DNA of 64,000 nt from Bacteroidales bacterium (GTDB taxonomy: Bacteria; Bacteroidota; Bacteroidia; Bacteroidales; F082). The notes under the pieces are model-generated. The model made no database searches. It was not told where the DNA came from and was given only the letters and a program-made list of their open reading frames with translations. The DNA lies in assembly GCA_013141455.1 (NCBI GenBank), contig JABFQW010000027.1, positions 39,635 to 103,634 on the forward strand, given 5' to 3'. The position numbers were made by a program, and so were the translations under genes. Of this stretch, positions 139 to 2,572 are shown piece after piece. Every line of letters begins with the position of its first letter. The stretch's first letter is position 1.

Positions 139-708
139 ATGGGATTAAAAATTAGTACTTTAGCTGCAATACCTGAAAATGTAACTCGGAGTTACTACCT
201 GTACATTCTGGACTACTATAATTGGGACGAACCAATTGGTAATACCCTAAGAGATAATTTCGATAAGATAGCTGACTTTGCAGCAAAGAATGATTCTGTA
301 CTAATTCAGGGAATAAAAGAGAGCCATTTCTATTCAGAATTAATGTCGTGGGAATCGGTTAACGGTATTGACCCCAAAGAACTATTGCCAGCACTCATGA
401 TAACGACAATTCATCCAAAATACTTTCTTGACAGAAATGAAAAACAAATAGAAGGTGACCTAATTCCAGAAGACAATCTCATTTTCATCAAGATAGCAGA
501 TGTTTGTAAATCACCATTTGATGTAATTAAACTTTTGGAGAAAATATTTAGAGATATTAGTGAGAAGAAGGAGATTAAAGATTTTCGAATCAAAAAAGAG
601 CTAAAAGGTGGGATTGGAAAAATTCTAAACGACATGATAATACTTGAACCAAATATTGCTGGTATTGGGGTGAATATAAATCAATTATTTAGATTTCTCA
701 ACAAATGA
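139..708 (+). CDS. hypothetical protein (189 aa)
   Basis: Complete ORF, no motif recognised; followed by a roughly 300-bp non-coding stretch. Confidence 0.6.
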   Translation: MGLKISTLAAIPENVTRSYYLYILDYYNWDEPIGNTLRDNFDKIADFAAKNDSVLIQGIKESHFYSELMSWESVNGIDPKELLPALMITTIHPKYFLDRNEKQIEGDLIPEDNLIFIKIADVCKSPFDVIKLLEKIFRDISEKKEIKDFRIKKELKGGIGKILNDMIILEPNIAGIGVNINQLFRFLNK

Positions 709-1041
709 CAATTTCAAATGACCAAAATGCCTGGCGCTAACTTCAGCTACCCGTCAAGTACGGCAACAGTGGTTTCCGGTGTGCATCTTTCCGCCCGGTC
801 CCGGTTAACTGGGATTAATCACGCAGATGCAGAACCCGCAATCCGCAACTGCATATAGTTCCGAAAGTTACCACCAATACAAAAAAATTGTCTCCGGAAT
901 CACACAAAAATAGTACATGATATTGCACTATCTGATTGATTTAAATAAAAAAACTACTGATTAGTGCGATAAAGTGCTGTTTATTACTCTTTTTATTATT
1001 ATTATTAGATTTTATTGTACTTTTGTAATATAAAGAGCCGT

Positions 1042-1263
1042 ATGATGCACTATACAGAATTAATAAAAACAATAAAGGAGCGAAGGGAAATGTTGCAGGT
1101 AACACAGGAAACCTTAGCTGAAATATCGGGCGTTGGTTTAAGAACCTTGAAGCAATTTGAAAGCGGAAAAGGAAATCCGACACTTCTGACTTTACAAAAG
1201 ATAGCCGATGTACTCGGAATGGAAGTTAGTTTGAGACTCAAAAACTTATCCGGTAACAAATGA
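1042..1263 (+). CDS. hipB: HipB-like XRE-family helix-turn-helix antitoxin/repressor
   Basis: MMHYTELIKTIKERREMLQVTQETLAEISGVGLRTLKQFESGKGNPTLLTLQKIADVLGMEVSL: classic HTH_3/HipB sequence. ATG at 1042 preferred over the upstream non-ATG start in the ORF track. Confidence 0.9.
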   Translation: MMHYTELIKTIKERREMLQVTQETLAEISGVGLRTLKQFESGKGNPTLLTLQKIADVLGMEVSLRLKNLSGNK

Positions 1264-1589
1264 GAGAAGCAAAAGTATTATTCAAAGATCAGGAAGCAGG
1301 TATCTTAACCCAACACGATGATGGTTCATTTACATTCTGCTACCATGATGTATGGCTGGCTGACAAAGACAAACCAAATATCAGTCTTACATTGCCAAAA
1401 ATTGAACAACCGTTTCATTCGAAATTTTTATTCCCTTTTTTTTATAATATGCTACCGGAAGGCTCAAATAAGCAGGTGGTATGTAAACTTAACAGAATTG
1501 ATGAAGAGGATTATTTTGGCTTGCTGATGACTACTGCAGAAATTGATAGCATAGGTGCTGTAAGAATTTTAAAAATAGAAACGGAATGA
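1260..1589 (+). CDS. HipA N-terminal subdomain protein (HipS-like), 109 aa
   Basis: REAKVLFKDQEAGILTQHDDGSFTFCYHDVWL...ISLTLPKIEQPFHSKFLFPFFYNMLPEGSNKQ resembles the HipA N-subdomain 1 (couple_hipA); 4-bp ATGA overlap with hipB. Confidence 0.88.
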   Translation: MREAKVLFKDQEAGILTQHDDGSFTFCYHDVWLADKDKPNISLTLPKIEQPFHSKFLFPFFYNMLPEGSNKQVVCKLNRIDEEDYFGLLMTTAEIDSIGAVRILKIETE

Positions 1590-2572
1590 GTTTGCCTGAA
1601 ATAAAATATTGTCCCGGCACATTAGCTGAAGGTTTTAATACGTATAGCAGAACATGCTTGAAAAGAGTTTTTCATGGTAAGGCAGTTCATTTTGTTTTAC
1701 CGTACGACTCACCTGCATCCAATCCGGAGACGGATGAACTTTTTGAACAAAATCGAAAACATATATCCATTTCAGGAGTACAGGAAAAATTCTCTGTAAT
1801 ACTCGAAAAAAACAAGTTAAGACTAAGCAATGAGGGTGAGCGTGGTACATATATTCTAAAACCAATTCCAGGTGCGGGCAAAGATCCTGAACAAATGCCG
1901 GCCAATGAACACTTAACCATGCAAATTGCCCGTCAGGTATATGGAATTGAAACAGCCGAAAACGCATTGATATTCTTTAAAAATGGAGCTCCGGCATACA
2001 TCACCAGGCGTTTTGATGTTAGAGAAGACGGTACAAAACTTGCTCAGGATGATTTTGCATCCCTGGCTGGTAGAACGCCACAAACGCATGGAGAACATTA
2101 CAAATATCTGGGGAACTATTTAGAGCTATTTCAAGTTATGCAGACTCATTTATCTACCTATAAATTAGAAGCACCGAAACTCTTGAAAATACTTGTTTTT
2201 AACTTTCTGTTTTCAAATGGGGATGCTCACTTTAAAAACTTCTCGATACTTGAAACTCCAATGGGAGATTATAGACTAAGTCCTGCATATGACCTCTTAA
2301 ATAGCCATATGCACGTTGAAGATAAAGACTTTGCATTGGATGATGGACTATTACCAAAAAATATGGCTCAGGGGAAAATAAGTGTACAATTTGCCATACT
2401 CGCCGAGAGTGCAGGGATAAGGGAAAAGATTTTTAATGATATTATGGAGCTAATATTGTCAAAATCAATACTAGTTAACAAAATGATAACTGCTTCTTTC
2501 CTTAACGATACTTCTAAAAGAAATTATTGGCAGTCCTATCAGGGTCGTTTAAAACAATTGACAAAAGTATGA
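1586..2572 (+). CDS. HipA-family Ser/Thr kinase toxin lacking the N-terminal subdomain (HipT-like)
   Basis: SISGVQEKFSVIL Gly-rich loop, FLFSNGDAHFKNFSI (NGDxHxKN catalytic loop) and LSPAYDLLNS; 4-bp ATGA overlap with the upstream HipS-like ORF. Confidence 0.9.
   Translation: MSLPEIKYCPGTLAEGFNTYSRTCLKRVFHGKAVHFVLPYDSPASNPETDELFEQNRKHISISGVQEKFSVILEKNKLRLSNEGERGTYILKPIPGAGKDPEQMPANEHLTMQIARQVYGIETAENALIFFKNGAPAYITRRFDVREDGTKLAQDDFASLAGRTPQTHGEHYKYLGNYLELFQVMQTHLSTYKLEAPKLLKILVFNFLFSNGDAHFKNFSILETPMGDYRLSPAYDLLNSHMHVEDKDFALDDGLLPKNMAQGKISVQFAILAESAGIREKIFNDIMELILSKSILVNKMITASFLNDTSKRNYWQSYQGRLKQLTKV

Follow-up and report, generated by a model that had tools for sequence, protein, structure and literature searches.

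A probable HipBST-type toxin-antitoxin module of Bacteroidota with a Trp-less HipS and three evenly spaced predicted operators

The window analyzed here, a 64,000-nucleotide stretch of a Bacteroidales bacterium contig, carries three plus-strand open reading frames in the places expected of a HipBST module: a helix-turn-helix gene, a HipS-like gene, and a HipT-like kinase gene. The first, hipB (1045..1263), encodes a predicted Xre/Cro HTH repressor of 72 amino acids (HTH_3, 8e-14); the second, hipS (1260..1589), a stand-alone HipA N-subdomain 1 of 109 amino acids that is the predicted antitoxin; and the third, hipT (1586..2572), a 328-amino-acid Ser/Thr kinase without N-subdomain 1 (HipA_C, 1.6e-39). 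Consecutive genes are joined by ATGA overlaps at 1260-1263 (hipB/hipS) and 1586-1589 (hipS/hipT), and the order hipB-hipS-hipT, in one operon, is common to 81 close loci. An earlier note on this DNA had described a three-gene HipBST architecture whose kinase carries SISGVQEKFS and NGDAHFKN. The reading frames, overlaps, and domain matches bear this architecture out, and both motifs are present, as P-loop and catalytic motif, together with the Mg site SPAYD. The start of hipB is probably at 1045 and not, as given earlier, at 1042 (a protein of 73 amino acids), since 79 of 81 loci have a start codon aligned to 1045 and only 7 have one aligned to 1042; the correction is small. By its sequence, the locus thus combines the HipBST gene order, a stand-alone HipS domain, and a HipT core lacking N-subdomain 1 with an HTH-type HipB that appears to be devoid of the C-terminal Trp of HipBA.

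Upstream of hipB, three predicted operators follow the pattern AGTGC-N8-GCACT at fixed offsets from base 1042 (-130, -69, and -8): O3 at 912..929 (AGTACATGATATTGCACT, matching 9 of the 10 half-site bases), O2 61 bp downstream at 973..990 (AGTGCTGTTTATTACTCT, the weakest, with 8 of 10), and O1 a further 61 bp downstream at 1034..1051 (AGAGCCGTATGATGCACT, 9 of 10), where it overlaps the hipB start. A putative promoter -7 box on the plus strand (1018..1025, TACTTTTG) fits TAnnTTTG, which we take to be the Bacteroidota -7 box consensus, and this motif lies at exactly the equivalent position in 66 of 86 loci. O1 lies over both the hipB start codon and the expected start of transcription, a placement that would fit autorepression. 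Relatives were collected by a one-genome-per-species scan, which returned 284, and the best 80 of these (kinase identity 72-88%) were kept. These 80 contain 166 sites that match at least 9 of 10 bases, where block shuffling predicts 0.3; setting the arms at any other distance between 2 and 15 yields 0-3 sites, and the O3 position is retained in most of the 80. The chance of three window matches at pre-set places is about 3e-15, base composition considered. The array was recognized via comparison with relatives; a blind palindrome-pair search would not by itself single out the window promoter, where it picks 92 bp as the best pair and not 61 bp. Three evenly spaced operators are bound in EMSA by Legionella HipB (PMC10653801), and the 61-bp steps predicted here would follow the same Legionella-type plan. 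A search of the genome for a wider HipB regulon gave a single exact AGTGC-N8-GCACT site; it lies outside the window, and the count is lower than the chance level set by a reversed control.

The kinase is strongly conserved at its functional motifs. An alignment of 26 rows shows no variation at HipT residues S61, I62, S63, G64, N211, G212, D213, K217, N218, and D236, and SIS is found in all 86 close relatives scored by motif regular expression. This is the double-Ser P-loop (S-aliphatic-S) of the E. coli type, both serines of which are phosphorylated in the E. coli kinase; the single-Ser SVQ/SIQ loop of the Legionella type is absent. Among PDB sequences, HipT matches Legionella HipT best (100 bits, 2e-27), followed by E. 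coli HipT (48 bits, 1e-11). The AlphaFold2 model of HipT has low confidence (pLDDT 59) and is readable for the fold family alone; every one of its top PDB matches is a HipT or a HipA. A quick tree places the window HipT in a separate Bacteroidota lineage, with both reference kinases on very long branches, and the Legionella kinase joins the Trp-type Bacteroidota lineage weakly, by such a long branch. Given this separate lineage and these branches, we do not claim the module as Legionella-type, despite Legionella being the best PDB match.

In E. coli, HipT targets TrpS by phosphorylating Ser197 of the KMSKS motif; with S197A phosphorylation is abolished, and Ser199 has likewise been seen phosphorylated in vitro (PMC6581861). 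The sole TrpS match in the window's genome (contig C20, L120) reads KMGKS, with Gly at the Ser197 position, and judging by this residue TrpS-Ser197 cannot be the target of HipT in this host. KMGKS also occurs in every member of the window's family whose TrpS was read, and among the TrpS proteins of 31 module-bearing genomes 15 have KMGKS and 16 KMSKS. Since one tight HipT clade occurs in both kinds of host, this uniform group of kinases is probably independent of TrpS Ser197. An E. coli-type module that strikes TrpS through Ser199 or another residue would be compatible with the shared SIS P-loop and with the Ser199 equivalent, which the host TrpS retains, as do those of all 31 genomes read. 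We nevertheless regard such a module as unlikely, given that loss of Ser197 was sufficient to abolish phosphorylation in E. coli, that the clade spans hosts with and without this serine, and that the nearest PDB kinase, from Legionella, acts on neither TrpS nor GltX. The GltX of the window's genome keeps its KLSKR serine, but this motif is general and does not point to a target. In our reading, the preferred substrate is a host protein other than TrpS-Ser197.

HipS is recognized over its whole length as HipA N-subdomain 1 (Couple_hipA, 3e-20; TIGR03071, 2.8e-26, profile positions 2-100 of 101). Its AlphaFold2 model (pLDDT 88) has Legionella HipS as best PDB matches in Foldseek (7vkb_B, TM 0.85; 8ezr_A, TM 0.84), with E. 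coli HipS (7ab3) and the N-subdomain of HipA as further matches, and the identity that the earlier note proposed for the 109-amino-acid frame therefore stands. Neutralization of HipT by E. coli HipS depends on Trp65, which is pushed under the P-loop, and is lost in the W65A mutant (PMC10627512). The window HipS has Ser at this position (PEGS), as do 78 of 86 close relatives; the remainder have Thr, Pro, or Ala, none has Trp, and E67, G68, and N70 of HipS are invariant in an alignment. The HipS of Legionella, too, has no such Trp but does neutralize its kinase (PMC10653801). With an SIS loop kept in every close relative, as in E. coli, and a Trp-less HipS, as in Legionella, the module is, at the level of sequence, a mixture of the two. 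The E. coli analogy drawn previously holds for the architecture, the SIS pair, and the catalytic loop; it fails at HipS Trp65, at TrpS Ser197, and in the closest solved relatives, which are from Legionella.

Which small partner silences the kinase had earlier been considered unreadable from sequence, and this can now be narrowed. HipB proteins of HipBST systems are reported to lack the C-terminal Trp of HipBA (PMC10627512), and no Trp occurs after residue 55 in any of 81 HipB proteins of the clade, which points to HipS rather than HipB as the neutralizing partner. It is conceivable that the same three genes work in a HipBA-like manner, with HipB as the real antitoxin and HipS merely completing the kinase fold as a detached lid. 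Two characterized HipBST modules do not prove that every lineage works alike, the window HipS lacks the Trp wedge, and Legionella HipB binds HipT directly. We consider this arrangement rather improbable, however, because a HipB of 72 amino acids has no C-terminal Trp tail of the kind that enters HipA, and because in both E. coli and Legionella it is HipS that neutralizes, while HipB does not. HipS therefore remains the favored antitoxin.

The separation of hipS from hipT is genuine. The junction lies at the same place in every close relative (about 80), with a hipS-hipT distance of -4 in 38 of 81 loci and -1 in 15, and a hipB-hipS distance of -4 in 67 of 81. Measured against six close relatives, pN/pS of hipB, hipS, and hipT is 0.11-0.28, indicating purifying selection. 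Five distinct relatives (L036:2559-3000, L068, L073, L076, and L078), which fall into two separate regions of the tree, have an ORF belonging to the 23S_rRNA_IVP family (Pfam PF05635; four-helix bundle, S23) at the hipS-hipT junction, an insertion that a fused HipA protein would not tolerate. Although the two frames overlap as a frameshift would leave them, a full-length hipA split by decay or sequencing error, the concern attached to the earlier description, can be rejected with near certainty, since the junction and a start codon there are kept in all close relatives, both halves show purifying selection, and an extra gene lies between them in some relatives. The inserted ORF is accompanied by AT-rich TGATAATTGA-like repeats, with the hipT start lying inside the insert, and in L078 it is apparently truncated.

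Taken together, we assign a probability of roughly 0.8 to the reading of the locus as an intact toxin-antitoxin module of HipBST type, belonging to a Bacteroidota subtype, in which HipS is the antitoxin, HipB acts mainly as repressor, and the target is not TrpS-Ser197. HipS, as the detached N-subdomain 1 of HipA, would cap the kinase and most likely hold the P-loop (SISGVQ) ejected and ATP-free through contacts that differ from the Trp wedge of E. coli, possibly the conserved residues around M64-N70. HipB would bind the three 18-bp operators at their 61-bp steps, probably together with HipS-HipT, and thereby repress the operon. When HipS is lost or falls short, HipT would phosphorylate a host protein and growth would stop; the SIS serines may tune HipT as they do in E. 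coli. Gene structure, family assignments, the HipS fold, sequence conservation, purifying selection, the operator array, and the KMGKS of TrpS are results of the computation; kinase toxicity, HipS neutralization by P-loop ejection, HipB repression, and complex formation are steps that we infer by analogy with the characterized systems; our literature search found no experimental work on any member of the window's HipBST clade.

Comparison with known systems shows where the module departs from each. Legionella pneumophila HipBST (Lpg2368-2370; PMC10653801, PMC9325769) shares its gene order, a HipS without Trp65, and three evenly spaced 18-nt operators, and provides the best PDB match for HipT and for the HipS fold; the Legionella adelaidensis copy has ATGA junctions as well. 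The Legionella systems differ in their P-loop (SVQ as opposed to SIS), in HipT identity, which is only about 25-29%, in operator sequence, and in operator spacing, which is 71-72 bp in L. adelaidensis against 61 bp here. E. coli O127:H6 HipBST (PMC6581861, PMC10627512) resembles the window in gene order, the SIS double-Ser P-loop, a HipB without C-terminal Trp, and the HipS fold; it differs in HipS Trp65 (Ser here) and TrpS Ser197 (absent in the window host), and its 48-bit kinase match has low identity over about half the length. The hipBA operon of E. coli K-12 has the HTH and HipA parts in the same order, and its 18-bp operators (TATCC-N8-GGATA) are likewise built of 5-bp arms and an 8-bp spacer; HipA is one protein, however, HipB is an antitoxin with a C-terminal Trp, and O1 and O2 lie 28 bp apart from start to start, as counted in the published oligonucleotide.

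The module is not a new system, since HipBST-type modules of Bacteroidota have already been reported. Lin et al. (2023) state that homologues of the L. pneumophila HipBST are widespread in the FCB superphylum, and this statement most likely covers the module in the window. The main text of that study addresses presence and phylogeny; it characterizes no Bacteroidota member and gives no Trp/SIS pairing, TrpS loop, or operators for the group. Added here to a known class are two defined points at which the analogy with E. coli breaks down, together with the phased operator array and the link of this array to the type of HipS and HipT. Between the two characterized HipBST systems there is disagreement over the way HipS silences HipT and over the target of the kinase. 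An SIS loop as in E. coli, a Trp-less HipS, and hosts without the E. coli target residue come together in the present lineage, which therefore tells apart features that the two models confound.

The link between operator array and module type was followed across Bacteroidota by searching upstream of hipB for the best palindromic 18-mer pair, 25 to 110 bp apart, in representatives with less than 75% HipS identity. Where HipS lacks the Trp, the best pair lies at 60-62 bp in 28 of 35 representatives; where HipS has the Trp, it lies at 40-41 bp in 15 of 16, the remaining one being at 80 bp. The operators themselves vary by lineage (AGTGC/GCACT, ATCAC/GTGAT, ATTTAA/TTAAAT, and TATACCC/GGGTATA) at fixed spacing, so that spacing is kept while sequence drifts. 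The spacings of 40, 61, and 71 bp, the last from Legionella, lie roughly one and two helical turns apart. The P-loop varies in parallel: by regular expression, which left 18 loci unread, a Trp-less HipS is paired with an S-aliphatic-S loop in 93 of 94 loci read, the exception being Legionella SVQ, and the 36 Trp-type HipS read accompany TLT, SVP, TVT, and similar loops, never S-aliphatic-S. We tentatively suggest, as a possibility that is somewhat less than even, that Bacteroidota harbor two co-adapted HipBST types, one with an S-aliphatic-S kinase, a Trp-less HipS, and a spacing of 60-62 bp, and the other with a different P-loop, a Trp-type HipS, and a spacing of 40-41 bp, the distance being fixed such that adjacent operators bring HipB-HipS-HipT complexes into contact on one face of the DNA. 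This contact is one that we infer from the spacing. If it holds, promoter occupancy would itself be part of toxin control, and fixed operator spacing would offer a simple, testable sign of a toxin-antitoxin complex assembling on DNA as an array. Trp-type operators (L003, L027-L034, L164-L203; for example TATACCCTAAAGGGTATA) resemble the TATCC-N8-GGATA of E. coli hipBA.

Two further hipBST modules, both complete and differing in type, lie elsewhere in the window's genome. The module on contig C28 (L116:7493-8787 and upstream) has SIS, SEGF, and a 61-bp pair; that on contig C11 (L117:6805-8538) has TIT, PEGW, and a 40-bp pair. The HipB ORF on C11, at 155 amino acids, is twice the usual length. 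The HipT tree mixes orders, HipT is identical in Flagellimonas and Maribacter, and a Flammeovirga plasmid has, next to its replication gene, a 63% relative that shares the operator pair. From these sequences the module looks self-contained and horizontally moved. The 60 neighboring ORFs of relatives belong mostly to unrelated families, with a few defense-like ones (Fic, AbiEi, CBASS cyclase), which led us to reject a conserved fourth partner. A viral origin was rejected as well, the single viral contig carrying a 47% relative. A run of small plus-strand genes upstream had prompted the idea of an integron cassette, and this too was rejected: the surrounding 20 kb showed no repeated attC-like element, and no hit to an integron integrase passed the cut-off. 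The downstream flank gene has no match in same-genus genomes.

Several minor observations concern the surroundings of the module and its kinase. Upstream, at window positions 139-708, lies a gene for a 189-amino-acid protein with no Pfam, NCBIfam, or PADLOC match above cut-off. PADLOC gives, at 1586-2569, weak HipT and HipS matches to the candidate phage-defense pair PDC-M03A/B (1.6e-8 and 1.3e-4). A same-genus genome contains a hipT fragment (G016:C94:12072-12443) of 52% identity with five internal stops, a decaying gene for a related kinase.
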